DNA from: Diplolepis rosae | Taxonomy: Eukaryota > Arthropoda > Insecta > Hymenoptera > Diplolepididae | Length of the DNA: 64,000 nucleotides | Assembly (NCBI GenBank): GCA_030998225.1 | Contig: JAPYXD010000755.1 | Span: forward strand, 2,604,001 to 2,668,000 | Direction of reading: 5' to 3' | In this document: positions 20,493-55,591 of the stretch, in pieces | Numbering within the stretch: position 1 is the first letter of the stretch | Layout: each line of letters opens with the position of its first letter | Notes under the pieces: generated by a model | The model's database searches: none | Told to the model about the DNA's origin: nothing | Seen by the model: the letters and a program-made list of their open reading frames with translations, nothing else | Translations under genes and position numbers: made by a program

Positions 20493-20640
20493 CTTCAGTT
20501 TTTATCTTGACCCAAAAATAAATTCAATGTAGTTTATTTATATTGGCATTGGGTCATAATTTTTCATTAAAGAACAATGTTCAAGCAAACATATCAAAAA
20601 AGTTTTAAAGGGGCAGAAAATATATTGTAGGGGTGAAAAA

Positions 20641-20681
20641 GGCAAACGTTTCGGCCACAAATGGGGGCCCTCTTCAGTGCC
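20641..20681 (-). ncRNA. Hammerhead ribozyme candidate in the inverted arm
   Basis: The minus strand has the same 41-nt order as 38,150-38,190: GGCA, CTGAAGA, a GGCC/GGCC stem II, GAAA, CGT, U and TGCC. All core positions match CUGANGA...GAAA, and stem I pairs perfectly over 4 bp. Stem III (ACGU) is self-complementary without a loop, so a dimeric fold is expected. Activity is inferred. Confidence 0.6.
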
Positions 20682-21539
20682 AAATTTAATGTACTTAGTG
20701 TCTAAGCTGTAAACGTGCAAGAAAAGTTATTAGCACTAACATTAGATTTTTTTGTTTTTGTTTTTTTGGTATTTTTTAATGATATTTTATAAGCATGCAA
20801 AACTTATGTGAGAAAGGAAGATGGTAAGCTCCAAGGCATCTAGGAACGAGACCGCTCCAAAACACAGCCTTAAAAAAGTGTGAGAACTCCTAACTTGCAG
20901 ATCCGCGAAGAGTGAATCCGCAAACTGCCCCTCCTCAAAGGTACACACGAGAACCACCTATGGACACTGATATCTCCTACAAAATAAGCACAGATCCTGC
21001 AGAAAAAACATCACCATCCACAAGGGGGCTCACAACACCCACAAGAAGTAAGCACTTCACAAAATCACAAAACACGAACCCGGAAGGAAACAGATTTTTC
21101 GTTGAAGGGCAAAATCAAAAATTGATAGTTTTTATTTCAATTTTTAATCTTCTATTTTCCTTTAAGACACAGAGGCGGCAGATAGAAGTAGCCACACACT
21201 CTGTTTGGTGTCAAAAAGGAAACTGATTTGAGAAGAGAGCAGTACCGTTTGAAAACTAGCATAAAATTTTAATATATACAGTGAAAATTTGTTGTGGAGG
21301 GTCAAGTTACAAACGCATAAACAAACCCCATACACGGTCTATGTCCTGGAAACTCGGGACCCTAGTACGCTTAAGTGTTCGGAGAGCGATGAGAGAGAAA
21401 GAAGGGATTCAGACCACATGTTGAGAGAGACCCTCGGAGGAAGTAATTTTGGAATAAAATAAAATGTGATGATTAAAAAACATATTCTTAGAAAGAGAGT
21501 TGCAAAACAATGAAAAGGGCTATGTCTTATTCAGTTAGT

Positions 21540-21645
21540 TTATTTAAAAATGCATTATTTTATATTTATAAAAATCTTATATTCATAAAAATTTCATATT
21601 TATAAAAATTTTATACTTATAAAAATTTTATGTTCGGATTAAAAC
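21540..21645 (-). repeat. 18-bp AT repeat at the array end
   Basis: About five imperfect units of TATAAAAATTTTATA type. The same block appears in the other orientation at 37,195-37,275 and 53,018-53,100, always just outside the last satellite monomer. Confidence 0.6.
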
Positions 21646-21674
21646 AAAAATATTATATTTAAGATGGTAAGAAT

Positions 21675-24600
21675 ACGTATAAAAATCGCATTTCTTTTAA
21701 AGGTACCACTCGCGTATGTACGTTATTATGTAGCGTTAATTAAGTAAAGAATGTATTCATAATTTTAAACCGGCGTTGAATCAAAATATTTCTCAATTGC
21801 TTTAAATCAGCGAGAAGTATTAGCGTATGTAATATAGTGAACGCTTCGCGGCTTGTTAATGCGATTTAATATTCACATCGAACTAACGTTGAGCAATCTC
21901 ACATAAGATACGTTAACTGTTAACAAAAGTCGTATTTATTTCATAAGTAAAACTCGCGTGTATAAATTTTATGTAGCGTTGAGAATGTGTTTAAAGAATC
22001 CATCATTTGATAAACGACACGGGGCGCGAAATTCAAAATTCTCAGAGATTATATTCCGCGAGAAATATTCGCGTATGTAATATATTGAACGCTTCGCGGC
22101 TTGTTTATGCGAAAATATGTTCACATAGGACTAATCCTGACGAATCTCATATATGAGACGTTAAATATACATAAAAATCGTATTTATTTCCCAAAAGTAA
22201 ACTCGCGTGTACAAATTTTAATGTAGCGTTGAGTACCTGTTGAAAGAATCCACCATTAGGTAAACGGCACGGGGCGCGAAACTCAAAAATCTAGAAGATT
22301 ATATTCCGCGAAAAGTATTCGTGTATTTAATATGTAGAATGCTTTGCGGCTTGTTTATGCAAATTGATGTTCATATAGGACCAATTGTGATGAATCTCAT
22401 ATGTAAGACGTTAAATATAGATAAAAATCGTATTTATTTCCCAAAAGTGAACTCGCGTGTAAAAATTTTAATGTAGCGTTGAGTACCTGTTGAAAGAATC
22501 CATCATTCGGTAAACGGCACGGGGCACTAAACTCAAAAACCTCGGAGATTATATTCCGTGAAAAGTATTCGCGTATTTAATATATAGAATGCTTTGCGGC
22601 TTGTTTATGCAAATTGATGTTCACATAGGACCAATCCTGATGAATCTCATATGTAAGACGTTAAATATAGTTAAAAATGTTATTTATTTCCCTAAAGTGA
22701 ACTCGCGTGTAAAAATTTTAATGTAGCGTTGAGTACCTGTTGAAAGAATCCATCATTCGGTAAACGGCACGGGGCGCGAAACTCAAAAATCTCGGAGACT
22801 ATATTCCGCGAAAAATATTCGCGTATGTAATATATTGAACGCTTCGCGGCTTGTTTATGCGAATATATGTTCACATAGGACTAATCCTGACGAATCTCAT
22901 ATATGAGACGTTAAATATACATTAAAATCGTATTTATTTCCCAAAAGTAAACTCGCGTGTAAAAATTTTAATGTAGCGTTGAGTACCTGTTGAAAGAATC
23001 CACCATTAGGTAAACGGCACGGGGCGCGAAACTCAAAAATCTAGAAGATTATATTCCGCGAAAAGTATTCGTGTATTTAATATGTAGAATGCTTTGCGGC
23101 TTGTTTATGCAAATTGATGTTCATATAGGACCAATTGTGATGAATCTCATATGTAAGACGTTAAATATAGATAAAAATCGTATTAATTTCGAAAGTAAAC
23201 TCGCGTGTATAAATTTTATGTAGCGTTGAGGAACGTGTTTAGAGAATCCATCATTTGATAAACGACACAGGGCGCGAAATTCAAAATTCTCAGAGATTAT
23301 ATTCCGCGAGAAATATTCGCGTATGTAATATATTGAACGCTTCGCGGCTTGTTTATGCGAATATATGTTCACATAGGACTAATCCTGAAGAATCTCATAT
23401 ATGAGACGTTAAATATACATAAAAATCGTATTTATTTCCCAAAAGTAAACTCGCGTGTAAAAATTTTAATGTAGCGTTGAGTACCTGTTGAAAGAATCCA
23501 TCATTCGGTAAACGGCACGGGGCGCGAAACTCAAAAATCTCGGAGATTATATTCTGCGAAAAGTATTCGCGTATGTAATATATTGAACGCTTCGCGGCTT
23601 GTTTATGCGAATATATGTTCACATAGGACTAATCCTGACGAATCTCATATATGAGACGTTAAATATACATTAAAATCGTATTAATTTCGAAAGTAAACTC
23701 GCGTGTATAAATTTTATGTAGCGTTGAGTACCTGTTGAAAGAATCCACCATTAGGTAAACGGCACGGGGCGCGAAACTCAAAAATCTAGAAGATTATATT
23801 ACGCGAAAAGTATTCGCGTATTTAATATATAGAAAGCTTTGTGGCTTGTTTATGCAAATTGATGTTCACATGGGACCAATCCTGATGAATCTCATATGTA
23901 AGACGTTAAATATAGATAAAAATCGTATTTATTTCCAAAAGTGAACTCGCGTGTAAAAATTTTAATGTAGCCTTGAGTACCTGTTGAAAGAATCCATCAT
24001 TCGGTAAACGGCACGGGGCGCGAAACTCAAAAATCTCGGAGACTATATTCCGCGAAAAGTATTCGCGTATGTAATATATTGAACGCTTCGCGGCTTGTTT
24101 ATGCGAATATATGTTCACATAGGACTAATCCTGACGAATCTCATATATGAGACGTTAAATATACATTAAAATCGTATTTATTTCCCAAAAGTAAACTCGC
24201 GTGTAAAAAATTTTAATGTAGCGTTGAGCACCTGTTGAAAGAATCCACCATTAGGTAAACGGCACGGGGCACGAAACTCAAAAATCTAGAAGATTATATT
24301 CCGCGAAAAGTATTCGTGTATTTAATATGTAGAATGCTTTGCGGCTTGTTTATGCAAATTGATGTTCACATAGGACCAATTCTGATGAATCTCATATGTG
24401 AGACGTTAAATATACATAAAAATCGTATTTATTTCCCAAAAGTAAACTCGCGTGTAAAAATTTTAATGTAGCGTTGAGTACCTGTTGAAAGAATCCATCA
24501 TTCGGTAAACGGCACGGGGCACTAAACTCAAAAATCTCGGAGATTATATTCTGTGAAAAGTATTCGCGTATTTAATATATAGAATGCTTTGCGGCTTGTT

Positions 24601-27600
24601 TATGCAAATTGATGTTCACATAGGACCAATCCTGATGAATCTCATATGTAAGACGTTAAATATAGATAAAAATCGTATTTATTTCCCAAAAGTGAACTCG
24701 CGTGTAAAAATTTTAATGTAGCGTTGAGTACCTGTTGAAAGAATCCATCATTCGGTAAACGGCACGGGGCGCGAAATTCAAAAATCTCGGAGATTATATT
24801 CCGCGAAAAATATTCGCGTATGTAATATATTGAACGCTTCGCGGCTTGTTTATGCGAATATATGTTCACATAGGACTAATCCTGACGAATCTCATATATG
24901 AGACGTTAAATATACATTAAAATCGTATTTATTTCCCAAAAGTAAACTCGCGTGTAAAAATTTTAATGTAGCGTTGAGTACCTGTTGAAAGAATCCACCA
25001 TTAGGTAAACGGCACGGGGCGCGAAACTCAAAAATCTAGAAGATTATATTCCGCGAAAAGTATTCGTGTATTTAATATGTAGAATGCTTTGCGGCTTGTT
25101 TATGCAAATTGATGTTCATATAGGACCAATTGTGATGAATCTCATATGTAAGACGTTAAATATAGATAAAAATCGTATTAATTTCGAAAGTAAACTCGCG
25201 TGTATAAATTTTATGTAGCGTTGAGGAACGTGTTTAGAGAATCCATCATTTGATAAACGACACAGGGCGCGAAATTCAAAATTCTCAGAGATTATATTCC
25301 GCGAGAAATATTCGCGTATGTAATATATTGAACGCTTCGCGGCTTGTTTATGCGAATATATGTTCACATAGGACTAATCCTGAAGAATCTCATATATGAG
25401 ACGTTAAATATACATAAAAATCGTATTTATTTCCCAAAAGTAAACTCGCGTGTAAAAATTTTAATGTAGCGTTGAGTACCTGTTGAAAGAATCCATCATT
25501 CGGTAAACGGCACGGGGCGCGAAACTCAAAAATCTAGAAGACTATATTCCGCGATAAATATTCGCGTATGTAATCTATTGAACGCTTCGCGGCTTGTTTA
25601 TGCGAATATATGTTCACATAGGACTAATCCTGACGAATCTCATATATGAGACGTTAAATATACATTAAAATCGTATTTATTTCCCAAAAGTAAACTCGCG
25701 TGTAAAAAATTTTAATGTAGCGTTGAGCACCTGTTGAAAGAATCCACCATTAGGTAAACGGCACGGGGCGCGAAACTCAAAAATCTAGAAGATTATATTC
25801 CGCGAAAAGTATTCGTGTATTTAATATGTAGAAAGCTTTGTGGCTTGTTTATGCAAATTGATGTTCACATGGGACCAATCCTGATGAATCTCATATGTAA
25901 GACGTTAAATATAGATAAAAATCGTATTTATTTCCAAAAGTGAACTCGCGTGTAAAAATTTTAATGTAGCCTTGAGTACCTGTTGAAAGAATCCATCATT
26001 CGGTAAACGGCACGGGGCGCGAAACTCAAAAATCTCGGAGACTATATTCCGCGAAAAATATTCGCGTATGTAATATATTGAACGCTTCGCGGCTTGTTTA
26101 TGCGAATATATGTTCACATAGGACTAATCCTGACGAATCTCATATATGAGACGTTAAATATACATTAAAATCGTATTTATTTCCCAAAAGTAAACTCGCG
26201 TGTAAAAAATTTTAATGTAGCGTTGAGCACCTGTTGAAAGAATCCACCATTAGGTAAACGGCACGGGGCACGAAACTCAAAAATCTAGAAGATTATATTC
26301 CGCGAAAAGTATTCGCGTATTTAATATGTAGAATGCTTTGCGGCTTGTTTATGCAAATTGATGTTCACATAGGACCAATTCTGATGAATCTCATATGTGA
26401 GACGTTAAATATACATAAAAATCGTATTTATTTCCCAAAAGTAAACTCGCGTGTAAAAATTTTAATGTAGCGTTGAGTACCTGTTGAAAGAATCCATCAT
26501 TCGGTAAACGGCACGGGGCGCAAAACTCAAAAATCTCGGAGATTATATTCCGTGAAAAGTATTCGCGTATTTAATATTTAGAATGCTTTGCGGCTTGTTT
26601 ATGCAAATTGATGTTCACATAGGACCAATCCTGATGAATCTCATATGTAAGACGTTAAATATAGTTAAAAATCCCATTTATTTCCCAAAAGTGAACTCGC
26701 GTGTAAAAATTTTAATGTAGCGTTGAGTACCTGTTGAAAGAATCCATCATTCGGTAAACGGCACGGGGCGCGAAACTCAAAAATCTCGGAGACTATATTC
26801 CGCGAAAAATATTCGCGTATGTAATATATTGAACGCTTCGCGGCTTGTTTATGCGAATATATGTTCACATAGGACTAATCCTGACGAATCTCATATATGA
26901 GACGTTAAATATACATTAAAATCGTATTTATTTCCCAAAAGTAAACTCGCGTGTAAAAAATTTTAATGTAGCGTTGAGTACCTGTTGAAAGAATCCACCA
27001 TTAGGTAAACGGCACGGGGCGCGAAACTCAAAAATCTAGAAGATTATATTCCGCGAAAAGTATTCGTGTATTTAATATGTAGAATGCTTTGCGGCTTGTT
27101 TATGCAAATTGATGTTCATATAGGACCAATTGTGATGAATCTCATATGTAAGACGTTAAATATAGATAAAAATCGTATTAATTTCGAAAGTAAACTCGCG
27201 TGTATAAATTTTATGTAGCGTTGAGGAACGTGTTTAGAGAATCCATCATTTGATAAACGACACAGGGCGCGAAATTCAAAATTCTCAGAGATTATATTCC
27301 GCGAGAAATATTCGCGTATGTAATATATTGAACGCTTCGCGGCTTGTTTATGCGAATATATGTTCACATAGGACTAATCCTGAAGAATCTCATATATGAG
27401 ACGTTAAATATACATAAAAATCGTATTTATTTCCCAAAAGTAAACTCGCGTGTAAAAATTTTAATGTAGCGTTGAGTACCTGTTGAAAGAATCCATCATT
27501 CGGTAAACGGCACGGGGCGCGAAACTCAAAAATCTAGAAGACTATATTCCGCGAAAAATATTCGCGTATGTAATATATTGAACGCTTCGCGGCTTGTTTA

Positions 27601-30600
27601 TGCGAATATATGTTCACATAGGACTAATCCTGACGAATCTCATATATGAGACGTTAAATATACATTAAAATCGTATTTATTTCCCAAAAGTAAACTCGCG
27701 TGTAAAAAATTTTAATGTAGCGTTGAGCACCTGTTGAAAGAATCCACCATTAGGTAAACGGCACGGGGCGCGAAACTCAAAAATCTAGAAGATTATATTC
27801 CGCGAAAAGTATTCGTGTATTTAATATATAGAAAGCTTTGTGGCTTGTTTATGCAAATTGATGTTCACATGGGACCAATCCTGATGAATCTCATATGTAA
27901 GACGTTAAATATAGATAAAAATCGTATTTATTTCCAAAAGTGAACTCGCGTGTAAAAATTTTAATGTAGCCTTGAGTACCTGTTGAAAGAATCCATCATT
28001 CGGTAAACGGCACGGTGCGCGAAACTCAAAAATCTCGGAGACTATATTCCGCGAAAAATATTCGCGTATGTAATATATTGAACGCTTCGCGGCTTGTTTA
28101 TGCGAATATATGTTCACATAGGACTAATCCTGACGAATCTCATATATGAGACGTTAAATATACATTAAAATCGTATTTATTTCCCAAAAGTAAACTCGCG
28201 TGTAAAAAATTTTAATGTAGCGTTGAGCACCTGTTGAAAGAATCCACCATTAGGTAAACGGCACGGGGCGCGAAACTCAAAAATCTAGAAGATTATATTC
28301 CGCGAAAAGTATTCGTGTATTTAATATGTAGAATGCTTTGCGGCTTGTTTATGCAAATTGATGTTCACATAGGACCAATTCTGATGAATCTCATATGTGA
28401 GACGTTAAATATACATAAAAATCGTATTTATTTCCCAAAAGTAAACTCGCGTGTAAAAATTTTAATGTAGCGTTGAGTACCTGTTAAAAGAATCCATCAT
28501 TCGGTAAACGGCACGGGGCACTAAACTCAAAAAATCTCGGAGATTATATTCCGTGAAAAGTATTCGCGTATTTAATATATAGAATGCTTTGCGGCTTGTT
28601 TATGCAAATTGATGTTCACATAGGACCAATCCTGATGAATCTCATATGTAAGACGTTAAATATAGTTAAAAATCCCATTTATTTCCCAAAAGTGAACTCG
28701 CGTGTAAAAATTTTAATGTAGCGTTGAGTACCTGTTGAAAGAATCCATCATTCGGTAAACGGCACGGGGCGCGAAACTCAAAAATCTCGGAGACTATATT
28801 CCGCGAAAAATATTCGCGTATGTAATATATTGAACGCTTCGCGGCTTGTTTATGCGAATATATGTTCACATAGGACTAATCCTGACGAATCTCATATATG
28901 AGACGTTAAATATACATTAAAATCGTATTTATTTCCCAAAAGTAAACTCGCGTGTAAAAATTTTAATGTAGCGTTGAGTACCTGTTGAAAGAATCCACCA
29001 TTAGGTAAACGGCACGGGGCGCGAAACTCAAAAATCTAGAAGATTATATTCCGCGAAAAGTATTCGTGTATTTAATATGTAGAATGCTTTGCGGCTTGTT
29101 TATGCAAATTGATGTTCATATAGGACCAATTGTGATGAATCTCATATGTAAGACGTTAAATATAGATAAAAATCGTATTAATTTCGAAAGTAAACTCGCG
29201 TGTATAAATTTTATGTAGCGTTGAGGAACGTGTTTAGAGAATCCATCATTTGATAAACGACACAGGGCGCGAAATTCAAAATTCTCAGAGATTATATTCC
29301 GCGAGAAATATTCGCGTATGTAATATATTGAACGCTTCGCGGCTTGTTTATGCGAATATATGTTCACATAGGACTAATCCTGAAGAATCTCATATATGAG
29401 ACGTTAAATATACATAAAAATCGTATTTATTTCCCAAAAGTAAACTCGCGTGTAAAAATTTTAATGTAGCGTTGAGTACCTGTTGAAAGAATCCATCATT
29501 CGGTAAACGGCACGGGGCGCGAAACTCAAAAATCTAGGAGAATATATTCCGCGAAAAATATTCGCGTATGTAATATATTGAACGCTTCGCGGCTTGTTTA
29601 TGCGAATATATGTTCACATAGGACTAATCCTGACGAATCTCATATATGAGACGTTAAATATACATTAAAATCGTATTAATTTCGCAAAAGTAAACTCGCG
29701 TGTAAAAAATTTTAATGTAGCGTTGAGTACCTGTTGAAAGAATCCACCATTAGGTAAACGGCACGGGGCGCGAAACTCAAAAATCTAGAAGATTATATTC
29801 CGCGAAAAGTATTCGCGTATTTAATATATAGAATGCTTTGCGGCTTGTTTATGCAAATTGATGTTCACATGGGACCAATCCTGATGAATCTCATATGTAA
29901 GACGTTAAATATAGATAAAAATCGTATTTATTTCCAAAAGTGAACTCGCGTGTAAAAATTTTAATGTAGCCTTGAGTACCTGTTGAAAGAATCCATCATT
30001 CGGTAAACGGCACGGTGCGCGAAACTCAAAAATCTCGGAGACTATATTCCGCGAAAAATATTCGCGTATGTAATATATTGAACGCTTCGCGGCTTGTTTA
30101 TGCGAATATATGTTCACATAGGACTAATCCTGACGAATCTCATATATGAGACGTTAAATATACATTAAAATCGTATTTATTTCGCAAAAAGTAAACTCGC
30201 GTGTAAAAAATTTTAATGTAGCGTTGAGTACCTGTTGAAAGAATCCACCATTAGGTAAACGGCACGGGGCACGAAACTCAAAAATCTAGAAGATTATATT
30301 CCGCGAAAAGTATTCGCGTATTTAATATGTAGAATGCTTTGCGGCTTGTTTATGCAAATTGATGTTCACATAGGACCAATTCTGATGAATCTCATATGTG
30401 AGACGTTAAATATACATAAAAATCGTATTTATTTCCCAAAAGTAAACTCGCGTGTAAAAATTTTAATGTAGCGTTGAGTACCTGTTGAAAGAATCCATCA
30501 TTCGGTAAACGGCACGGGGCACCAAACTCAAAAATCTCGGAGATTATATTCCGCGAAAAGTATTCGCGTATTTAATATATAGAATGCTTTGCGGCTTGTT

Positions 30601-33222
30601 TATGCAAATTGATGTTCACATAGGACCAATTGTGATGAATCTCATATGTAAGACGTTAAATATAGATAAAAATCGTATTTATTTCCCTAAAGTGAACTCG
30701 CGTGTAAAAATTTTAATGTAGCGTTGAGTACCTGTTGAAAGAATCCATCATTCGGTAAACGGCACGGTGCGCGAAACTCAAAAATCTCGGAGACTATATT
30801 CCGCGAAAAATATTCGCGTATGTAATATATTGAACGCTTCGCGGCTTGTTTATGCGAATATATGTTCACATAGGACTAATCCTGACGAATCTCATATATG
30901 AGACGTTAAATATACATTAAAATCGTATTTATTTCCCAAAAGTAAACTCGCGTGTAAAAATTTTAATGTAGCGTTGAGTACCTGTTGAAAGAATCCACCA
31001 TTAGGTAAACGGCACGAGGCGCGAAATTCAAAAATCTAGAAGATTATATTCCGCGAAAAGTATTCGTGTATTTAATATGTAGAATGCTTTGCGGCTTGAT
31101 TATGCAAATTGATGTTCATATAGGACCAATTGTGATGAATCTCATATGTAAGACGTTAAATATAGATAAAAATCGTATTAATTTCGAAAGTAAACTCGCG
31201 TGTATAAATTTTATGTAGCGTTGAGGAACGTGTTTAGAGAATCCATCATTTGATAAACGACACAGGGCGCGAAATTCAAAATTCTCAGAGATTATATTCC
31301 GCGAGAAATATTCGCGTATGTAATATATTGAACGCTTCGCGGCTTGTTTATGCGAATATATGTTCACATAGGACTAATCCTGAAGAATCTCATATATGAG
31401 ACGTTAAATATACATAAAAATCGTATTTATTTCCCAAAAGTAAACTCGCGTGTAAAAATTTTAATGTAGCGTTGAGTACCTGTTGAAAGAATCCATCATT
31501 CGGTAAACGGCACGGGGCGCGAAACTCAAAAATCTAGAAGATTATATTCCGCGAAAAGTATTCGTGTATTTAATATGTAGAATGCTTTGCGGCTTGTTTA
31601 TGCAAATTGATGTTCATATAGGACCAATTGTGATGAATCTCATATGTAAGACGTTAAATATACATATAAATCGTATTTATTTCCCAAAAGTAAACTCGCG
31701 TGTAAAAATTTTAATGTAGCGTTGAGTACCTGTTGAAAGAATCCATCATTCGGTAAACGGCACGGGGCGCGAAACTCAAAAATCTCGGAGATTATATTCC
31801 GCGAAAAGTATTCGCGTATGTAATATATTGAACGCTTCGCGGCTTGTTTATGCGAATATATGTTCATATTGGACCAATTGTGATGAATCTCATATGTAAG
31901 ACGTTAAATATAGATAAAAATCGTATTTATTTCCCTAAAGTGAACTCGCGTGTAAAAATTTTAATGTAGCGTTGAGTACCTGTTGAAAGAATCCACCATT
32001 AGGTAAACGGCACGAGGCGCGAAATTCAAAAATCTAGAAGATTATATTCCGCGAAAAGTATTCGTGTATTTAATATGTAGAATGCTTTGCGGCTTGTTTA
32101 TGCAAATTGATGTTCATATAGGACCAATTCTGATGAATCTCATATGTAAGACGTTAAATATACATAAAAATCGTATTTATTTCCCAAAAGTAAACTCGCG
32201 TGTAAAAATTTTAATGTAGCGTTGAGTACCTGTTGAAAGAATCCATCATTCGGTAAACGGCACGGGGCGCGAAACTCAAAAATCTCGGAGATTATATTCC
32301 GTGAAAAGTATTCGCGTATTTAATATATAGAATGCTTTGCGGCTTGTTTATGCAAATTGATGTTCACATAGGACCAATCCTGATGAATCTCATATGTAAG
32401 ACGTTAAATATAGTTAAAAATCGTATTTATTTCCCAAAAGTGAACTCGCGTGTAAAAATTTTAATGTAGCGTTGAGTACCTGTTGAAAGAATCCATCATT
32501 CGGTAAACGGCATGGGGCGCGAAACTCAAAAATCTCGGAGATTATATTCCGCGAAAAGTATTCGCGTATGTAATATATTGAACGCTTCGCGGCTTGTTTA
32601 TGCGAATATATGTTCACATAGGACTAATCCTGACGAATCTCATATATGAGACGTTAAATATACATTAAAATCGTATTTATTTCCCAAAAGTAAACTCGCG
32701 TGTAAAAATTTTAATGTAGCGTTGAGTACCTGTTGAAAGAATCCATCATTCGGTAAACGGCACGGGGCGCGAAACTCAAAAATCTCGGAGATTATATTCC
32801 GTGAAAAGTATTCGCGTATTTAATATATAGAATGCTTTGCGGCTTGTTTATGCAAATTGATGTTCACATAGGACCAATCCTGATGAATCTCATATGTAAG
32901 ACGTTAAATATAGTTAAAAATCGTATTTATTTCCCAAAAGTAAACTCGCGTGTAAAAATTTTAATGTAGCGTTGAGTACCTGTTGAAAGAATCCATCATT
33001 CGGTAAACGGCACGGAGCGCGAAATTCCAAAATATAGGAGACTATATTCCGCGAAAAGTATTCGCGTATTTAATATATAGAATGCTTTGCGGCTTGTTTA
33101 TGCAAATTGATGTTCACATAGGACCAATCCTGATGAATCTCATATGTAAGACGTTAAATATAGTTAAAAATCGTATTTATTTCCCAAAAGTGAACTCGCG
33201 TGTAAAAATTTTAATGTAGCGT
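21675..33222 (-). repeat. 250-bp satellite array, inverted copy (about 46 monomers)
   Basis: Monomers are marked by GCGGCTTGTTTATGC every 247-250 bp. Each contains the palindrome CTCATATATGAG or a close relative, and a GCGAA(T/A)A...CGCG hairpin. Several monomer types alternate in order. From about 23.1 kb the pattern repeats with a 2,000-bp period (equivalent points at 23,121, 25,116, 27,116, 29,116 and 31,116), giving an eight-monomer higher-order repeat. Short open frames in each monomer are repeat by-products. Confidence 0.9.
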
Positions 33223-33439
33223 ACTTTTTTATCAATTCATTTATTCCTGGCAATTTCCAATTAAATATTATATCGGACACCGTTTATATGAGGAATAAAT
33301 GATGATATATATAAATAAAAAATATTATAAATAAATAATAATAATTATTATAAATAATTATAAATATTATGTATAGGCCACTAAACGCTCGACTTATACC
33401 TGTTAATATTTCTTTTAATATAAAATCAATTAACGTCTC

Positions 33440-37170: not shown

Positions 37171-37194
37171 AAATATAATATTTTTGTTTTAATC

Positions 37195-37275: not shown

Positions 37276-37667
37276 ATGCATTTTTAAATAAACTAACTGA
37301 ATAAGACATAGCCCTTTTCATTGTTTTGCAACTCTCTTTCTAAGAATATGTTTTTTAATCATCACATTTTATTTTATTCCAAAATTACTTCCTCCGAGGG
37401 TCTCTCTCAACATGTGGTCTGAAACCCTTCTTTCTCTCTCTCCGCTCTCCAAACACTTAAGCGTACTAGGGTCCCGAGTTTCCAGGACATAGACCGTTTA
37501 TGGGGTTTGTTTATGCGTTTGTAACTTGACCCTCCACAACAAATTTTCACTGTATATATTAAAATTTTATGCTAGTTTTCAAACGGTACTGCTCTCTTCT
37601 CAAATCAGTTTCCTTTTTGACACCAAACAGAGTGTGTGGCTACTTCTATCTGCCGCCTCTGTGTCTT

Positions 37668-38830: not shown

Positions 38831-38837
38831 TGACAGG

Positions 38838-40865: not shown

Positions 40866-41043
40866 GGTCTCTCGGTCTAGCTGTTCCACAACATCTAACC
40901 ACATGGCGACCCAGAATGAGAAAGAAGTCACGTTCAAACAATGAAGAGGGCTCATTAGGCTCATTGGGCTTATAGTCCTAATTTTTAAAAATATATATCA
41001 ATTTCGAATGAAAGGTTTTGTTAATTATATCAACCTTTAGTAA
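40866..41043 (+). other. PLE 3' region between stop codon and pseudo-LTR B
   Basis: A 178-bp noncoding stretch with a GGCTCATTAGGCTCATTGGGC direct repeat. No polyadenylation signal is certain. Confidence 0.45.
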
Positions 41044-41259
41044 ACTTTTTTATCAATTCATTTATTCCTGGCAATTTCCAATTAAATATTATATCGGACA
41101 CCGTTTATATGAGGAATAAATGATGATATATATAAATAAACAATATTATAAATAAATAATAATAATTATTATAAATAATTATAAATATTATGTATAGGCC
41201 ACTAAACGCTCGACTTATACCTGCTAATATTTCTTTTAATATAAAATCAATTAACGTCT

Positions 41260-44200
41260 CATATATAAGATTGGTCAACGATAGTCCGTTGAGAATATTA
41301 AATTGCATGAACCAGCCGCGAAGCGTTCCATATATTACATACGCGAATACTTCTCGCGGAATATAATCTCCGAGATTTTTGAATTTCGCGCGCCGTATCG
41401 TTTTTAAAAAATGATGAATTCTTACAACGGGTTCTCAACGCTACATTAAATTTATACACGTGAGTTTACTTTTGGGAAATAAATACGATTTTTATGTATA
41501 TTTAACGTCTCATATATGAGATTCTTCAGGATTAGTCCTATGTGAACATATATTCGCATAAACAAGCCGCGAAGCGTTCAATATATTACATACGCGAATA
41601 TTTCTCGCGGAATATAATCTCTGAGAATTTTGAATTTCGCGCCCTGTGTCGTTTATCAAATGATGGATTCTCTAAACACGTTCCTCAACGCTACATAAAA
41701 TTTATACACGCGAGTTTACTTTCGGAAATAAATACGATTTTTATCTATATTTAACGTCTTACATATGAGATTCATCACAATTGGTCCTATATGAACATCA
41801 ATTTGCATAAACAAGCCGCAAAGCATTCTACATATTAAATACACGAATACTTTTCGCGGAATATAATCTTCTAGATTTTTGAGTTTCGCGCCCCGTGCCG
41901 TTTACCTAATGGTGGATTCTTTCAACAGGTGCTCAACGCTACATTAAAATTTTTTACACGCGAGTTTACTTTTGGGAAATAAATACGATTTTAATGTATA
42001 TTTAACGTCTCATATATGAGATTCGTCAGGATTAGTCCTATGTGAACATATATTCGCATAAACAAGCCGCGAAGCGTTCAATATATTACATACGCGAATA
42101 TTTTTCGCGGAATATAATCTCCGAGATTTTTGAGTTTCGCGCCCCGTGCCGTTTACCGAATGATGGATTCTTTCAACAGGTACTCAACGCTACATTAAAA
42201 TTTTTACACGCGAGTTTACTTTTGGGAAATAAATACGATTTTTATGTATATTTAACGTCTCATATTTGAGATTCGTCAGGATTAGTCCTATGTGAACATA
42301 TATTCGCATAAACAAGCCGCGAAGCGTTCAATATATTACATACGCGAATATTTCTCGCAGAATATAATCTCTGAGAATTTTGAATTCGCGCCCTGTGTCG
42401 TTTATCAAATGATGGATTCTCTAAACACGTTCCTCAACGCTACATAAAATTTATACACGCGAGTTTACTTTCGAAATTAATACGATTTTTATCTATATTT
42501 AACGTCTTACATATGAGATTCATCACAATTGGTCCTATATGAACATCAATTTGCATAAACAAGCCGCAAAGCATTCTACATATTAAATACACGAATACTT
42601 TTCGCGGAATATAATCTTCTAGATTTTTGAGTTTCGCGCCCCGTGCCGTTTACCTAATGGTGGATTCTTTCAACAGGTACTCAACGCTACATTAAAATTT
42701 TTACACGCGAGTTTACTTTTGGGAAATAAATACGATTTTTATGTATATTTAACGTCTCATATATGAGATTCGTCAGGATTAGTCCTATGTGAACATATAT
42801 TCGCATAAACAAGCCGCGAAGCGTTCAATATATTACATACGCGAATATTTCTCGCGGAATATAATCTCTGAGAATTTTGAGTTTCGCGCCCCGTGCCGTT
42901 TACCGAATGATGGATTCTTTCAACAGGTACTCAACGCTACATTAAAATTTTTACACGCGAGTTTACTTTTGGGAAATAAATACGATTTTTATGTATATTT
43001 AACGTCTCATATATGAGATTCGTCAGGATTAGTCCTATGTGAACATATATTCGCATAAACAAGCCGCGAAGCGTTCAATATATTACATACGCGAATATTT
43101 CTCGCGGAATATAATCTCTGAGAATTTTGAGTTTCGCGCCCCGTGCCGTTTACCGAATGATGGATTCTTTCAACAGGTACTCAACGCTACATTAAAATTT
43201 TTACACGCGAGTTTACTTTTGGGAAATAAATACGATTTTAATGTATATTTAACGTCTCATATATGAGATTCGTCAGGATTAGTCCTATGTGAACATATAT
43301 TCGCATAAACAAGCCGCGAAGCGTTCAATATATTACATACGCGAATAATTTTCGCGGAATATATACTCCGAGATTTTTGAGTTTCGCGCCCCGTGCCGTT
43401 TACCGAATGATGGATTCTTTCAACAGGTACTCAACGCTACATTAAAATTTTTACACGCTAGTTTACTTTTGGGAAATAAATACGATTTTTATGTATATTT
43501 AACGTCTCATATATGAGATTCTTCAGGATTAGTCCTATGTGAACATATATTCGCATAAACAAGCCGCGAAGCGTTCAATATATTACATACGCGAATATTT
43601 CTCGCGGAATATAATCTCTGAGAATTTTGAGTTTCGCGCCCCGTGCCGTTTACCGAATGATGGATTCTTTCAACAGGTACTCAACGCTACATTAAAATTT
43701 TTACACGCGAGTTTACTTTTGGGAAATAAATACGATTTTAATGTATATTTAACGTCTCATATATGAGATTCGTCAGGATTAGTCCTATGTGAACATATAT
43801 TCGCATAAACAAGCCGCGAAGCGTTCAATATATTACATACGCGAATATTTCTCGCGGAATATAATCTCCGAGATTTTTGAGTTTCGCGCCCCGTGCCGTT
43901 TACCGAATGATGGATTCTTTCAACAGGTACTCAACGCTACATTAAAATTTTTACACGCGAGTTTACTTTTGGGAAATAAATACGATTTTTATGTATATTT
44001 AACGTCTCATATATGAGATTCTTCAGGATTAGTCCTATGTGAACATATATTCGCATAAACAAGCCGCGAAGCGTTCAATATATTACATACGCGAATATTT
44101 CTCGCGGAATATAATCTCTGAGAATTTTGAATTTCGCGCCCTGTGTCGTTTATCAAATGATGGATTCTCTAAACACGTTCCTCAACGCTACATAAAATTT

Positions 44201-47200
44201 ATACACGCGAGTTTACTTTCGAAATTAATACGATTTTTATCTATATTTAACGTCTTACATATGAGATTCATCACAATTGGTCCTATATGAACATCAATTT
44301 GCATAAACAAGCCGCAAAGCATTCTACATATTAAATACACGAATACTTTTCGCGGAATATAATCTTCTAGATTTTTGAGTTTCGCGCCCCGTGCCGTTTA
44401 CCTAATGGTGGATTCTTTCAACAGGTACTCAACGCTACATTAAAATTTTCACACGCGAGTTTACTTTTGGGAAATAAATACGATTTTAATGTATATTTAA
44501 CGTCTCATATATGAGATTCGTCAGGATTAGTCCTATGTGAACATATATTCGCATAAACAAGCCGCGAAGCGTTCAATATATTACATACGCGAATACTTTT
44601 CGCGGAATATAATCTCCGAGATTTTTGAGTTTCGCGCCCCGTGCCGTTTACCGAATGATGGATTCTTTCAACAGGTACTCAACGCTACATTAAAATTTTT
44701 ACACGCGAGTTCACTTTTGGGAAATAAATACGATTTTTAACTATATTTAACGTCTTACATATGAGATTCATCAGGATTGGTCCTATGTGAACATCAATTT
44801 GCATAAACAAGCCGCAAAGCATTCTATATATTAAATACGCGAATACTTTTCACGGAATATAATCTCCGAGATTTTTGAGTTTGGCGCCCCGTGCCGTTTA
44901 CCGAATGATGGATTCTTTCAACAGGTACTCAACGCTACATTAAAATTTTTACACGCGAGTTTACTTTTGGTAAATAAATACGATTTTAATGTATATTTAA
45001 CGTCTCATATATGAGATTCGTCAGGATTAGTCCTATGTGAACATATATTCGCATAAACAAGCCGCGAAGCGTTCAATATATTACATACGCGAATACTTTT
45101 CGCGGAATATAGGCTCCGATATTTTTGAGTTTCGCGCCCCGTGCCGTTTACCGAATGATGGATTCTTTCAACAGGTACTCAACGCTACATTAAAATTTTT
45201 ACACGCGAGTTTACTTTTGGGAAATAAATACGATTTTTATGTATATTTAACGTCTCATATATGAGATTCTTCAGGATTAGTCCTATGTGAACATATATTC
45301 GCATAAACAAGCCGCGAAGCGTTCAATATATTACATACGCGAATATTTCTCGCGGAATATAATCTCTGAGAATTTTGAATTTCGCGCCCTGTGTCGTTTA
45401 TCAAATGATGGATTCTCTAAACACGTTCCTCAACGCTACATAAAATTTATACACGCGAGTTTACTTTCGAAATTAATACGATTTTTATCTATATTTAACG
45501 TCTTACATATGAGATTCATCACAATTGGTCCTATATGAACATCAATTTGCATAAACAAGCCGCAAAGCATTCTATATATTAAATACGCGAATACTTTTCA
45601 CGGAATATAATCTCCGAGATTTTTGAGTTTCGCGCCCCGTGCCGTTTACCGAATGATGGATTCTTTCAACAGGTACTCAACGCTACATTAAAATTTTTAC
45701 ACGCGAGTTTACTTTTGGGAAATAAATACGATTTTTATGTATATTTAACGTCTCATATATGAGATTCTTCAGGATTAGTCCTATGTGAACATATATTCGC
45801 ATAAACAAGCCGCGAAGCGTTCAATATATTACATACGCGAATATTTCTCGCGGAATATAATCTCTGAGAATTTTGAATTTCGCGCCCTGTGTCGTTTATC
45901 AAATGATGGATTCTCTAAACACGTTCCTCAACGCTACATAAAATTTATACACGCGAGTTTACTTTCGAAATTAATACGATTTTTATCTATATTTAACGTC
46001 TTACATATGAGATTCATCACAATTGGTCCTATATGAACATCAATTTGCATAAACAAGCCGCAAAGCATTCTACATATTAAATACACGAATACTTTTCGCG
46101 GAATATAATCTTCTAGATTTTTGAGTTTCGCGCCCCGTGCCGTTTACCTAATGGCGGATTCTTTCAACAGGTGCTCAACTCTACATTAAAATTTTTCACA
46201 CGCGAGTTTACTTTTGGGAAATAAATACGATTTTAATGTATATTTAACGTCTCATATATGAGATTCGTCAGGATTAGTCCTATGTGAACATATATTCGCA
46301 TAAACAAGCCGCGAAGCGTTCAATATATTACATACGCGAATACTTTTCGCGGAATATAATCTCCGAGATTTTTGAGTTTCGCGCCCCGTGCCGTTTACCG
46401 AATGATGGATTCTTTCAACAGGTACTCAACGCTACATTAAAATTTTTACACGCGAGTTTACTTTTGGGAAATAAATACGATTTTTATGTATATTTAACGT
46501 CTCATATATGAGATTCTTCAGGATTAGTCCTATGTGAACATATATTCGCATAAACAAGCCGCGAAGCGTTCAATATATTACATACGCGAATATTTCTCGC
46601 GGAATATAATCTCTGAGAATTTTGAATTTCGCGCCCTGTGTCGTTTATCAAATGATGGATTCTCTAAACACGTTCCTCAACGCTACATAAAATTTATACA
46701 CGCGAGTTTACTTTCGAAATTAATACGATTTTTATCTATATTTAACGTCTTACATATGAGATTCATCACAATTGGTCCTATATGAACATCAATTTGCATA
46801 AACAAGCCGCAAAGCATTCTATATATTAAATACGCGAATACTTTTCACGGAATATAATCTCCGAGATTTTTGAGTTTCGCGCCCCGTGCCGTTTACCGAA
46901 TGATGGATTCTTTCAACAGGTACTCAACGCTACATTAAAATTTTTACACGCGAGTTTACTTTTGGGAAATAAATACGATTTTTATGTATATTTAACGTCT
47001 CATATATGAGATTCTTCAGGATTAGTCCTATGTGAACATATATTCGCATAAACAAGCCGCGAAGCGTTCAATATATTACATACGCGAATATTTCTCGCGG
47101 AATATAATCTCTGAGAATTTTGAATTTCGCGCCCTGTGTCGTTTATCAAATGATGGATTCTCTAAACACGTTCCTCAACGCTACATAAAATTTATACACG

Positions 47201-50200
47201 CGAGTTTACTTTCGAAATTAATACGATTTTTATCTATATTTAACGTCTTACATATGAGATTCATCACAATTGGTCCTATATGAACATCAATTTGCATAAA
47301 CAAGCCGCAAAGCATTCTACATATTAAATACACGAATACTTTTCGCGGAATATAATCTTCTAGATTTTTGAGTTTCGTGCCCCGTGCCGTTTACCTAATG
47401 GTGGATTCTTTCAACAGGTGCTCAACGCTACATTAAAATTTTTTACACGCGAGTTTACTTTTGGGAAATAAATACGATTTTAATGTATATTTAACGTCTC
47501 ATATATGAGATTCGTCAGGATTAGTCCTATGTGAACATATATTCGCATAAACAAGCCGCGAAGCGTTCAATATATTACATACGCGAATATTTTTCGCGGA
47601 ATATAGTCTCCGAGATTTTTGAGTTTCGCGCCCCGTGCCGTTTACCGAATGATGGATTCTTTCAACAGGTACTCAACGCTACATTAAAATTTTTACATGC
47701 GAGTTTACTTTTGGGAAATAAATACGATTTTTATGTATATTTAACGTCTCATATATGAGATTCTTCAGGATTAGTCCTATGTGAACATATATTCGCATAA
47801 ACAAGCCGCGAAGCGTTCAATATATTACATACGCGAATATTTCTCGCGGAATATAATCTCTGAGAATTTTGAATTTCGCGCCCTGTGTCGTTTATCAAAT
47901 GATGGATTCTCTAAACACGTTCCTCAACGCTACATAAAATTTATACACGCGAGTTTACTTTCGAAATTAATACGATTTTTATCTATATTTAACGTCTTAC
48001 ATATGAGATTCATCACAATTGGTCCTATATGAACATCAATTTGCATAAACAAGCCGCAAAGCATTCTACATATTAAATACACGAATACTTTTCGCGGAAT
48101 ATAATCTTCTAGATTTTTGAGTTTCGTGCCCCGTGCCGTTTACCTAATGGTGGATTCTTTCAACAGGTGCTCAACGCTACATTAAAATTTTTTACACGCG
48201 AGTTTACTTTTGGGAAATAAATACGATTTTAATGTATATTTAACGTCTCATATATGAGATTCGTCAGGATTAGTCCTATGTGAACATATATTCGCATAAA
48301 CAAGCCGCGAAGCGTTCAATATATTACATACGCGAATATTTTTCGCGGAATATAGTCTCCGAGATTTTTGAGTTTCGCGCCCCGTGCCGTTTTACTAATT
48401 ATGGATTCTTTCAACAGGTACTCAACGCTACATTAAAATTTTTACACGCGAGTTTACTTTTGGGAAATAAATACGATTTTTATGTATATTTAACGTCTCA
48501 TATATGAGATTCTTCAGAATTAGTCCTATGTGAACATATATTCGCATAAACAAGCCGCGAAGCGTTCAATATATTACATACGCGAATATTTTTCGCGGAA
48601 TATAGTCTCCGAGATTTTTGAGTTTCGCGCCCCGTGCCGTTTACCTAATGGTGGATTCTTTCAACAGGTGCTCAACGCTACATTAAAATTTTTTACACGC
48701 GAGTTTACTTTTGGGAAATAAATACGATTTTAATGTATATTTAACGTCTCATATATGAGATTCGTCAGGATTAGTCCTATGTGAACATATATTCGCATAA
48801 ACAAGCCGCGAAGCGTTCAATATATTACATACGCGAATACTTTTCGCGGAATATAGTCTCCGAGATTTTTGAGTTTCGCGCCCCGTGCCGTTTACCGAAT
48901 GATGGATTCTTTCAACAGGTACTCAACGCTACATTAAAATTTTTACACGCGAGTTTACTTTTGGGAAATAAATACGATTTTTATGTATATTTAACGTCTC
49001 ATATATGAGATTCGTCAGGATTAGTCCTATGTGAACATATTTTCGCATAAACAAGCCGCGAAGCGTTCAATATATTACATACGCGAATATTTCTCGCGGA
49101 ATATAATCTCTGAGAATTTTGAGTTTCGCGCCCCGTGCCGTTTACCGAATGATGGATTCTTTCAACAGGTACTCAACGCTACATTAAAATTTTTACACGC
49201 GAGTTTACTTTTGGGAAATAAATACGATTTTTATGTATATTTAACGTCTCATATATGAGATTCTTCAGGATTAGTCCTATGTGAACATATATTCGCATAA
49301 ACAAGCCGCGAAGCGTTCAATATATTACATACGCGAATATTTCTCGCGGAATATAATCTCTGAGAATTTTGAATTTCGCGCCCTGTGTCGTTTATCAAAT
49401 GATGGATTCTCTAAACACGTTCCTCAACGCTACATAAAATTTATACACGCGAGTTTACTTTCGAAATTAATACGATTTTTATCTATATTTAACGTCTTAC
49501 ATATGAGATTCATCACAATTGGTCCTATATGAACATCAATTTGCATAAACAAGCCGCAAAGCATTCTATATATTAAATACGCGAATACTTTTCACGGAAT
49601 ATAATCTCCGAGATTTTTGAGTTTCGCGCCCCGTGCCGTTTACCGAATGATGGATTCTTTCAACAGGTACTCAACGCTACATTAAAATTTTTACACGCGA
49701 GTTTACTTTATTGAAATAAATACGATTTTTATGTATATTTAACGTCTCATATATGAGATTCTTCAGGATTAGTCCTATGTGAACATATATTCGCATAAAC
49801 AAGCCGCGAAGCGTTCAATATATTACATACGCGAATATTTCTCGCGGAATATAATCTCTGAGAATTTTGAATTTCGCGCCCTGTGTCGTTTATCAAATGA
49901 TGGATTCTCTAAACACGTTCCTCAACGCTACATAAAATTTATACACGCGAGTTTACTTTCGAAATTAATACGATTTTTATCTATATTTAACGTCTTACAT
50001 ATGAGATTCATCACAATTGGTCCTATATGAACATCAATTTGCATAAACAAGCCGCAAAGCATTCTACATATTAAATACACGAATACTTTTCGCGGAATAT
50101 AATCTTCTAGATTTTTGAGTTTCGCGCCCCGTGCCGTTTACCTAATGGTGGATTCTTTCAACAGGTGCTCAACGCTACATTAAAATTTTTTACACGCGAG

Positions 50201-52990
50201 TTTACTTTTGGGAAATAAATACGATTTTAATGTATATTTAACGTCTCATATATGAGATTCGTCAGGATTAGTCCTATGTGAACATATATTCGCATAAACA
50301 AGCCGCGAAGCGTTCAATATATTACATACGCGAATATTTTTCGCGGAATATAGTCTCCGAGATTTTTGAGTTTCGCGCCCCGTGCCGTTTACCGAATGAT
50401 GGATTCTTTCAACAGGTACTCAACGCTACATTAAAATTTTTACACGCGAGTTCACTTTTGGGAAATAAATACGATTTTTATGTATATTTAACGTCTCATA
50501 TATGATATTCTTCAGTATTAGTCCTATGTGAACATATATTCGCATAAACAAGCCGCTAAGCGTTCGATATATTACTTACGCGAATATTTTTCGCGGAATA
50601 TAGTCTCCGAGATTTTTGAGTTTCGCGCCCCGTGCCGTTTACCTAATGGTGGATTCTTTCAACAGGTGCTCAACGCTACATTAAAATTTTTTACACGCGA
50701 GTTTACTTTTGGGAAATAAATACGATTTTAATGTATATTTAACGTCTCATATATGAGATTCGTCAGGATTAGTCCTATGTGAACATATATTCGCATAAAC
50801 AAGCCGCGAAGCGTTCAATATATTACATACGCGAATATTTCTCGCGGAATATAGTCTCCGAGATTTTTTGAGTTTCGCGCCCCGTGCCGTTTACCGAATG
50901 ATGGATTCTTTCAACAGGTACTCAACGCTACATTAAAATTTTTACACGCGAGTTTACTTTTGGGAAATAAATACGATTTTTATGTATATTTAACGTCTCA
51001 TATATGAGATTCGTCAGGATTAGTCATATGTGAACCTATTTTCGCATAAACAAGCCGCGAAGCGTTCAATATATTACATACGCGAATATTTCTCGCGGAA
51101 TATAATCTCTGAGAATTTTGAGTTTCGCGCCCCGTGCCGTTTACCGAATGATGGATTCTTTCAACAGGTACTCAACGCTACATTAAAATTTTTACACGCG
51201 AGTTTACTTTTGGGAAATAAATACGATTTTTATGTATATTTAACGTCTCATATATGAGATTCTTCAGGATTAGTCCTATGTGAACATATATTCGCATAAA
51301 CAAGCCGCGAAGCGTTCAATATATTACATACGCGAATATTTCTCGCGGAATATAATCTCTGAGAATTTTGAATTTCGCGCCCTGTGTCGTTTATCAAATG
51401 ATGGATTCTCTAAACACTTTCCTCAACGCTACATAAAATTTATACACGCGAGTTTACTTTCGAAATTAATACGATTTTTATCTATATTTAACGTCTTACA
51501 TATGAGATTCATCACAATTGGTCCTATATGAACATCAATTTGCATAAACAAGCCGCAAAGCATTCTACATATTAAATACACGAATACTTTTCGCGGAATA
51601 TAATCTTCTAGATTTTTGAGTTTCGTGCCCCGTGCCGTTTACCTAATGGTGGATTCTTTCAACAGGTGCTCAACGCTACATTAAAATTTTTTACACGCGA
51701 GTTTACTTTTGGGAAATAAATACGATTTTAATGTATATTTAACGTCTCATATATGAGATTCGTCAGGATTAGTCCTATGTGAACATATATTCGCATAAAC
51801 AAGCCGCGAAGCGTTCAATATATTACATACGCGAATAATTAACGCGGAATATAATCTCCGAGATTTTTGAGTTTCGCGCCCCGTGCCGTTTACCTAATGA
51901 TGGATTCTTTCAACAGGTACTCAACGCTACATTAAAATTTTTACACGCGAGTTTACTTTTGGGAAATAAATACGATTTTTATGTATATTTAACGTCTCAT
52001 ATATGAGATTCTTCAGGATTAGTCCTATGTGAACATATATTCGCATAAACAAGCCGCGAAGCGTTCAATATATTACTTACGCGAATACTTTACGCGGAAT
52101 ATAATCTCCGAGATTTTTGAGTTTCGCGCCCCGTGCCGTTTACCTAATGGTGGATTCTTTCAACAGGTGCTCAACGCTACATTAAAATTTTTTACACGCG
52201 AGTTTACTTTTGGGAAATAAATACGATTTTAATGTATATTTAACGTCTCATATATGAGATTCGTCAGGATTAGTCCTATGTGAACATATATTCGCATAAA
52301 CAAGCCGCGAAGCGTTCAATATATTACATACGCGAATACTTTTCGCGGAATATAGTCTCCGAGATTTTTGAGTTTCGCGCCCCGTGCCGTTTACCGAATG
52401 ATGGATTCTTTCAACAGGTACTCAACGCTACATTAAAATTTTTACACGCGAGTTTACTTTTGGGAAATAAATACGATTTTTATGTATATTTAACGTCTCA
52501 TATATGAGATTCGTCAGGATTAGTCCTATGTGAACATATTTTCGCATAAACAAGCCGCGAAGCGTTCAATATATTACATACGCGAATATTTCTCGCGGAA
52601 TATAATCTCTGAGAATTTTGAATTTCGCGCCCCGTGTCGTTTATCAAATGATGGATTCTTTAAACACATTCTCAACGCTACATAAAATTTATACACGCGA
52701 GTTTTACTTATGAAATAAATACGACTTTTATTAACAGTTAACGTATCTTATGTGAGATTGCTCAACGTTAGTTCGATGTGAATATTAAATCGCATTAACA
52801 AGCCGCGAAGCGTTCACTATATTACATACGCTAATACTTCTCGCTGATTTAAAGCAATTGAGAAATATTTTGATTCAACGCCGGTTTAAAATTATGAATA
52901 CATTCTTTACTTAATTAACGCTACATAATAACGTACATACGCGAGTGGTACCTTTAAAAGAAATGCGATTTTTATACGTATTCTTACCAT
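41260..52990 (+). repeat. 250-bp satellite array in pseudo-LTR B (about 47 monomers)
   Basis: The marker ATAAACAAGCCGCGAAGCG (or its AAAGCATTC variant) recurs every 248-250 bp. Higher-order periods are visible. Equivalent points at 45,287, 46,534 and 47,781 are about 1,247 bp apart (five monomers). Equivalent points at 47,781 and 49,779, 48,280 and 50,278, and 49,281 and 51,280 are about 1,998 bp apart (eight monomers). A 250-bp dimer-like run occupies 42.8-43.8 kb. Terminal monomers (first and last) are the most divergent, as expected for tandem arrays homogenised from the centre. Confidence 0.9.
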
Positions 52991-53017
52991 CTTAAATATA
53001 ATATTTTTGTTTTAATC

Positions 53018-53100
53018 CGAACATAAAATTTTTATAAGTATAAAATTTTTATAAATATGAAATTTTTATGAATATAAGATTTTTATAAATATAAAATAAT
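53018..53100 (+). repeat. 18-bp AT repeat at the array end
   Basis: Same block as 37,195-37,275, with one A/G difference in a unit. Confidence 0.6.
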
Positions 53101-53490
53101 GCATTTTTAAATAAACTAACTGAATAAGACATAGCCCTTTTCATTGTTTTGCAACTCTCTTTCTAAGAATATGTTTTTTAATCATCACATTTTATTTTAT
53201 TCCAAAATTACTTCCTCCGAGGGTCTTTCTCAACATGTGGTCTGAAACCCTTCTTTCTCTCTCTCCGCTCTCCAAACACTTAAGCGTACTAGGGTCCCGA
53301 GTTTCCAGGACATAGACCGTTTATGGGGTTTGTTTATGCGTTTGTAACTTGACCCTCCACAACAAATTTTCACTGTATATATTAAAATTTTATGCTAGTT
53401 TTCAAACGGTACTGCTCTCTTCTCAAATCAGTTTCCTTTTTGACACCAAACAGAGTGTGTGGCTACTTCTATCTGCCGCCTCTGTGTCTT

Positions 53491-55540: not shown

Positions 55541-55591
55541 CTTGGTACGTTTGCATTGGCTTTAGGGTCCATAAATGAAGAAGTCTATTTA

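Follow-up and report, generated by a model that had tools for sequence, protein, structure and literature searches.

A 33-kb Penelope-like insertion in Diplolepis rosae with a 250-bp satellite inside its pseudo-LTRs

The 64,000-nucleotide stretch of Diplolepis rosae contig JAPYXD010000755.1 analyzed here (positions 2,604,001 to 2,668,000, referred to as the window) contains an insertion of 32,998 bp at 20,493-53,490 that carries the coding region of a Penelope-like element (PLE). From left to right, the insertion consists of an inverted copy, a direct pseudo-long terminal repeat (pLTR1) that adjoins it head to head, an internal region and a second direct pLTR (pLTR2; Table 1). The pLTRs occur in both direct and inverted order, as in a canonical PLE. 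Each direct pLTR begins with an AT-rich head of about 0.2 kb, continues as an array of 250-bp monomers and closes with a unique end block. The array is located between the 3' end of the open reading frame (ORF), with the AT-rich head, and the end block, hammerhead motif and ORF start. The layout, the enzyme and the hammerhead are those of an ordinary Penelope, and the novelty is the satellite-filled pLTR.

Comparison of the copies showed that the direct repeats reported in a preliminary description at 33,223-37,667 and 41,044-53,490 are real. Their heads were identical at 255 of the first 258 bp and their end blocks at 691 of the last 693 bp, and each end block matched that of the inverted copy at 687 of 693 positions. 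The same head in both direct pLTRs and the same end block in all three copies bear out the earlier proposal that terminal repeats of a PLE carry the satellite. The exact start and end shared by the repeats are also present but do not count as independent evidence, because the repeat is defined by the element's own start and stop and any pair of pLTRs shows them. The inverted copy tracks the pLTR for 12.06 kb and then extends for a further 671 bp into the internal region. This tail is identical to 37,668-38,338 at 668 of 671 positions, and 14 nt remain before the ATG of the ORF at 38,353. The inverted copy starts mid-monomer at 33,222, about 0.4 kb inside the pLTR by the best collinear match. 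It had been described as a third carrier of the array, which it is, but it also has the place and orientation of the ordinary inverted pLTR of Penelope. The unique heads, ends and tails were 98.8-99.7% identical across copies. Terminal repeats of 4-12 kb were noted before as unlike any standard PLE description, and the pLTRs described in PMC3846280 are about 0.2 kb in length (181-218 bp).

Arrays with a period of 250 bp were identified by Tandem Repeats Finder (TRF) at 21,810-33,222 in the inverted copy and in both direct pLTRs, and together they account for 26,599 of the 32,998 bp (TRF spans). The inverted array, pLTR1 and pLTR2 contained 46, 15 and 47 monomer anchors, respectively, matching the approximate counts given earlier (about 46, about 15 and 47). 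With long tandem arrays, a defined monomer and higher-order structure, they have the organization of satellite DNA. Elsewhere in the window, the satellite gave only chance-like matches of at most 22 bp. The three arrays share one locus and may stem from one insertion, and they are not three independent copies; the sequences covered showed no second copy unlinked to this one. In two sets of contigs where the host is not expected, the satellite pattern was not found: prokaryote contigs gave 20 protein-pattern matches, none confirmed, and no satellite match, and viral contigs gave neither satellite nor hammerhead pattern matches.

The arrays had been said to differ mainly in copy number. The counts do differ, but so does the order of the monomers: the three arrays have monomer types in common and not their arrangement. 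At an identity of at least 98.5%, collinearity of the inverted array with pLTR2 extended over 3 monomers at most, and a straight copy of pLTR2 into the inverted array, suggested by the 46 and 47 monomers, was rejected on the different monomer order. Higher-order structure, also proposed before, was found in two arrays. The inverted array displayed an 8-monomer repeat (about 2.0 kb), with a mean identity of 97.1% at lag 8 compared with at most 93.5% at lags 1-7; at positions 7-35 (0-based), 28 of the 29 lag-8 pairs were 97.2-100% identical and one was 95.6%, and the pattern was lost on either side. The pLTR1 array contained a repeated trimer, with the terminal monomer type present twice (positions 7 and 13). 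The pLTR2 array displayed no clean period (best lag 22, 94.2%). All three arrays have the last monomer type in the same place (99.2-99.6% identity), and the inverted array and pLTR2 also share certain inner types without any difference. For the six monomers at the start of pLTR1, the best pLTR2 matches were 90.8-95.6%, whereas the unique parts differ by at most 1.2%. Therefore, either the arrays change in content more rapidly than the unique parts acquire point mutations, or they came from different donors.

The ORF runs in frame 1 from the ATG at 38,353 to an in-frame stop at 38,566-38,568 and then in frame 3 to 40,865, with frame-1 similarity extending past the stop to about 38,832. The reverse transcriptase (RT) domain (PF00078, RVT_1, E 4.1e-14) and a C-terminal GIY-YIG endonuclease (PF01541, E 2.4e-6) both scored above the curated cut-offs, which agrees with the RT/GIY-YIG frame previously placed between the repeats. 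The YVDD motif and the cysteine pair C580 and C585 preceding GIY-YIG were invariant in 10 of 10 aligned proteins. Protein relatives were taken as the best 120 of 1,672 matches, with scoring that covered the 7,987 candidates sharing most words. The closest among the matches listed was P0001, an uninterrupted protein of 841 aa with 88% identity to the main piece and 76% over 162 aa to the N-terminal piece (tblastn). Judged from its sequence, the copy in the window is broken by one stop and one frameshift, and P0001 is an uninterrupted relative. The named relatives among the matches listed were all from Hymenoptera at about 40% identity, such as the ant PLE proteins of Temnothorax curvispinosus (LOC112468084) and Solenopsis invicta (LOC120358632), which aligned over 97-98% of the query.

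A hammerhead core, CTGAAGA...GAAACGT, was detected at 38,154 (+) and 20,677 (-) in the element and at 7,120 (-) and 7,814 (+) at a second locus near 7 kb. A third locus has a CTGATGA form at 55,627 (-) and a degenerate form at 57,514 (+), found by near-match search, in which the first core C is replaced. There were 5 exact cores in the window, compared with a mean of 0.025 (maximum 1) in 40 dinucleotide shuffles. All three hammerhead-bearing loci in the window have the motifs as divergent, head-to-head pairs. A block of 47 nt around the motif of the element was 100% identical to the 7.8-kb arm of the second locus and 97.9% identical over 48 nt to the other arm, and the next best similarity of the tail at that locus was about 70% over 122 bp. 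The secondary structure was drawn by eye. Alignment of the six motifs (five distinct) indicated that all 10 pairs hold in every sequence and that three of them change on both sides. None of 500 shuffles reached the covariation score, the percentage paired or the number of changed cells; in the same shuffles, 153 reached the number of pairs changed on both sides and 479 the number of further pair types. The covariation support is modest because all of the both-side changes separate the third locus from the other motifs. Stem III has two pairs and no loop, and minimal hammerheads of this type may work as dimers (PMC7761336). On the motif and the pair counts, we assign a putative minimal type I hammerhead near the pLTR-ORF junction, a feature that is common in PLEs and not defining. 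CTGANGA was also present in most monomers on the strand opposite the ORF (36 in the inverted array, 10 in pLTR1 and 34 in pLTR2). A hammerhead within the satellite monomer was considered and rejected, as no array contained a CTGANGA...GAAAC core.

Table 1. Features of the insertion, with positions in the window.
Feature	Position	Strand	Basis or remark
Inverted copy (5'-truncated pLTR and tail)	20,493-33,222	-	
Inverted tail, equivalent of 37,668-38,338, with hammerhead motif; outer (3') end of the insertion	20,493-21,163	-	668/671 identity
Putative hammerhead motif, minimal type I, in the inverted tail	20,641-20,681	-	Core CTGAAGA...GAAACGT at 20,677; pairs counted
Inverted, 5'-truncated pLTR (12.06 kb): end block and 46-anchor 250-bp array with 8-monomer higher-order repeat	21,164-33,222	-	
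Direct pLTR1 (4.4 kb): AT-rich head, 15-anchor satellite array, end block	33,223-37,667	+	
250-bp satellite array of pLTR1	33,430-37,021	+	TRF
Internal 5' untranslated segment (tail region) with hammerhead motif	37,668-38,352	+	
Internal region between the direct pLTRs	37,668-41,043	+	
Putative hammerhead motif, predicted cleavage after 38,186 (site inferred from motif)	38,150-38,190	+	Motif and pair counts
N-terminal PLE ORF piece, frame 1, up to the in-frame stop	38,353-38,568	+	tblastn of P0001
Main PLE ORF piece, frame 3: RT (PF00078) and GIY-YIG (PF01541)	38,823-40,865	+	
Direct pLTR2 (12.4 kb): head, 47-anchor satellite array, end block; without hammerhead or tail	41,044-53,490	+	
250-bp satellite array of pLTR2	41,251-52,844	+	TRF

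Taken together, the locus is likely a single Penelope-like insertion of canonical layout, in which the 250-bp array is a built-in, copy-number-labile module of the pLTR that was copied along with the element as proposed below. The anatomy, the identities, the non-collinear arrays, the conserved hammerhead motif and the three loci with head-to-head hammerhead pairs are direct observations; from them we infer the passage of kb-long arrays through RNA and all of the reaction steps. Typical Penelope copies have the ORF between two pLTRs with a shorter inverted pLTR adjacent and an optional tail at the end of the inverted pLTR (PMC3846280). For the Anolis element Poseidon PAc, work in vitro showed that the PLE protein cuts the two strands of the target and extends them; reverse transcription began internally on the template, 111-118 bp past the ORF start, with the hammerhead cut located 26 bp past the same point (PMC11167929). 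The published layout combined with this mode of initiation suggests two cDNAs, each begun near the ORF start and joined 5' to 5'. In the present case, a read-through or tandem transcript would span the array. The nuclease would cut both target strands, and both 3' ends would prime reverse transcription internally, near the ORF start. Each cDNA would then traverse the tail, the hammerhead, the end block and the array in turn, so that the ORF would come last. The cDNA on the left would have halted mid-array (33,222) and been linked 5' to 5' with its right-hand counterpart (33,223). Afterwards, array length and order may have shifted quickly by slippage, template switching or unequal exchange. 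This two-cDNA scheme is consistent with the junction at 33,222/33,223 and with the end at 38,338, although the latter lies just upstream of the ORF and not inside it.

Several observations weigh against this reading. Both PAc sites are inside the ORF, whereas here the ATG lies 14 nt beyond the end of the inverted copy and about 166 nt beyond the predicted hammerhead cut. The right end is a poor fit: pLTR2 stops at 53,490, before the hammerhead and tail and 671 nt short of the end of the inverted copy, and this end may have come from initiation too early, from loss of 3' sequence or from repair. Published tails are about 30-40 nt (PMC3846280), which makes the right end atypical. Complete copies are expected to contain the hammerhead in both direct pLTRs, a non-defining feature that is absent here, as pLTR2 ends before the motif. 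For head-to-head copies with palindromic junctions, PMC3846280 prefers self-priming on an antisense template; the junction here is not a direct palindrome, and the inverted copy starts well inside the pLTR. No convincing target-site duplication (TSD) was found, the longest shared word in the stretches compared being a 7-mer away from the ends. PLE copies without a TSD have been published, and the TSD is variable and not defining (PMC3846280). Best monomer matches as low as 90.8% between the two direct pLTRs are not accounted for by straightforward copying of a single array.

The RNA searches also stand on this side. At gathering scores, Rfam gave no match in 20,000-54,500. All matches from relaxed searches of short stretches were below threshold. 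Among them, the element matched RAGATH-1-hammerhead at 12.8 bits (gathering 56.3), below a microRNA family at 15.0 bits, and the third locus matched Hammerhead_3 at 14.4 bits (gathering 48.5). The 66-mer of the element gave no hammerhead fold as a monomer (z -0.22). In the 65-mer of the third locus, stem II forms and the whole hammerhead does not (z -1.06). No hammerhead was listed when 33,000-42,500 was searched at relaxed scores. A c-di-GMP match in the array at 25.9 bits (gathering 65.9) was taken as chance.

Among the alternatives, growth in place survives best, although we regard it as unlikely. The pLTR would originally have held a few tandem units, the element would move only short arrays, and the long arrays would have grown after insertion by unequal exchange. 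This overlaps with the preferred explanation and the two are not mutually exclusive. It would account for different higher-order patterns and non-collinear arrays next to unique parts that are about 99% identical, as well as for a last monomer type fixed in place (99.2-99.6%) with a scrambled inner order. It also has a precedent in Lathyrus, where satellites derive from short arrays of LTR retrotransposons that were occasionally expanded (PMC7004042). However, separate expansions at one locus are needed, two of them reaching 46-47 monomers, and the monomers of pLTR1 and pLTR2 differ more from each other than the unique parts do.

Duplication and inversion of one locus at the DNA level, for example by break-induced replication instead of retrotransposition, is improbable. 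Inverted copies with unique parts about 99% identical would be its natural product, and the window has several other inverted repeats. Against it, the end of the inverted copy falls 14 nt upstream of the ATG, near where internal initiation has been reported, the same outward-pointing divergent hammerhead pair occurs at two other loci of the window, and array contents differ among the copies. An assembly artefact, with the arrays or the inverted copy misjoined, is more improbable still: long near-identical arrays are indeed hard to assemble, but the copies have private differences (6 of 693 in the end block and 3 of 671 in the tail) and distinct higher-order patterns, and their layout agrees with the published one (PMC3846280). 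Free arrays of the satellite may exist elsewhere in the genome, but chance insertion of a PLE into or beside unrelated satellite DNA is hardly credible, being contradicted by the same head before the array in both direct pLTRs, the same end block after it in all three copies, and the position of the array inside the repeat and not outside.

At the 7-kb locus, a palindrome (6,996-7,937, 93.5%) has one hammerhead per arm, pointing outward, and no PLE protein match was found there. From the hammerhead and the weak similarity to the tail, it probably represents a pair of inverted pLTRs from a different PLE family. This palindrome is itself flanked by longer inverted arms (5,651-6,732 and 8,324-9,469, 86%). 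The third locus (55,534-57,608) contains a PLE protein fragment at 57,166-57,480 (-) with 47% identity to P0002 over 108 aa and no Pfam RT match. Between the fragment and the hammerhead, 55,679-57,165 consists of degenerate tandem repeats, with a best self-match at lag 481 (892 bp, 65%, 282 bits; maximum of 42.5 bits in 30 shuffles); most lags suggest a unit of about 130-160 bp. Tandem repeats beside PLE coding sequence at this separate locus count in favour of the preferred reading.

A dispersed repeat appears to span the insertion site. The segment 58,500-58,960 (reverse strand) matched 19,230-19,462 (90.6%) and then, after 3 nt, 54,122-54,241 (92.5%), so that the copy at 58,545-58,900 (-) runs almost without a break at the point where the 33-kb insertion and about 1.7 kb separate the two parts of the other. 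An older repeat thus seems to have been interrupted by the insertion together with about 1.7 kb of additional sequence, and a single insertion site is favoured. GC-rich minisatellites with CAGCAC-rich units (by eye) flank the insertion at 19,604-19,894 and 53,842-54,023; their best match was 49 bp at 76%, and they are possibly one interrupted element. Elsewhere in the window, a palindrome at 1,478-2,388 (82%) has about three 111-bp tandem units per arm and is foldback-like, without a hammerhead core. The segments 61,149-61,421 and 61,882-62,244 (-) encode DTGS-like and CCHC zinc-knuckle-like motifs (by eye) and are probable LTR-retrotransposon remnants.

The origin and dispersal of satellite arrays are still debated. 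Reviews name Helitrons, miniature inverted-repeat transposable elements, other DNA transposons, LTR elements and long interspersed nuclear elements as satellite sources (including PMC9659126). The word 'penelope' occurs 0 times in each of two reviews of transposon-derived satellites, and PMC9659126 has one word starting 'ple', its context not seen. In the literature on PLEs and satellites or tandem repeats, covered as the titles and abstract openings listed and as selected passages, with subscription papers mostly outside, no PLE with a satellite in its pLTR was described. The satellite-filled pLTR suggests a way for a Penelope-type element to copy and spread satellite DNA. If the published mechanism holds here, the satellite would be laid down first, because Penelope reverse transcription starts beside the ORF and runs back through the pLTR. 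With the array copied before the ORF, truncated insertions would be mostly satellite, of which the inverted copy would be an example. It is tentatively conceivable that the Penelope class acts as a satellite factory, in which insertions, even short truncated ones, lay monomers first and copying of a repetitive template makes new array lengths and higher-order repeats. If true, PLEs would be an added class of satellite source whose order of reactions would favour copying the array before the gene. The locus also indicates that a PLE insertion can reach 33 kb without extra genes, and automated annotation would probably split such an insertion into a satellite and a fragmentary RT.

Whole PLEs are typically 4-6 kb (PMC6431247). 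The closest parallels in layout are Pen2a_Av and other Penelope elements of Adineta vaga, which share a single ORF with RT and GIY-YIG, two direct pLTRs, an adjacent shorter inverted pLTR and an optional tail (PMC3846280). In Adineta vaga, the pLTR is about 0.2 kb and the tail 31 bp, whereas here the direct pLTRs are 4.4-12.4 kb with a satellite in them and the tail is 671 bp. Pen2a_Av has a 9-bp TSD, and none was seen here when the ends were compared; its inverted and direct pLTRs overlap by 15 bp, whereas the inverted copy here begins about 0.4 kb into the pLTR. Poseidon PAc is alike in having its hammerhead and the start of reverse transcription near the ORF start and in the cutting and extension of both strands (PMC11167929). 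Its sites are just inside the ORF and were shown by assay, whereas those in the window are predicted to lie just upstream; no satellite is described in the main text of that paper. Terminons are likewise very large PLE-related elements with hammerheads, but they have extra ORFs and attach to telomeres (PMC6431247), whereas the present element has a standard single ORF and owes its size to the satellite array.

Satellite-bearing termini have counterparts outside the PLEs. The Tetris foldback transposon of D. virilis contains tandem repeats of about 220 bp (TIR-220) inside its inverted terminal repeats, and these also form kb-size satellite arrays (PMC4079207). Tetris is a DNA transposon, apparently nonautonomous, which does not use reverse transcription. 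In the LTR retrotransposons of Lathyrus, retroelement-borne tandem arrays likewise expand into satellites, but these belong to a different class of retroelement and the arrays within the elements are short (PMC7004042).

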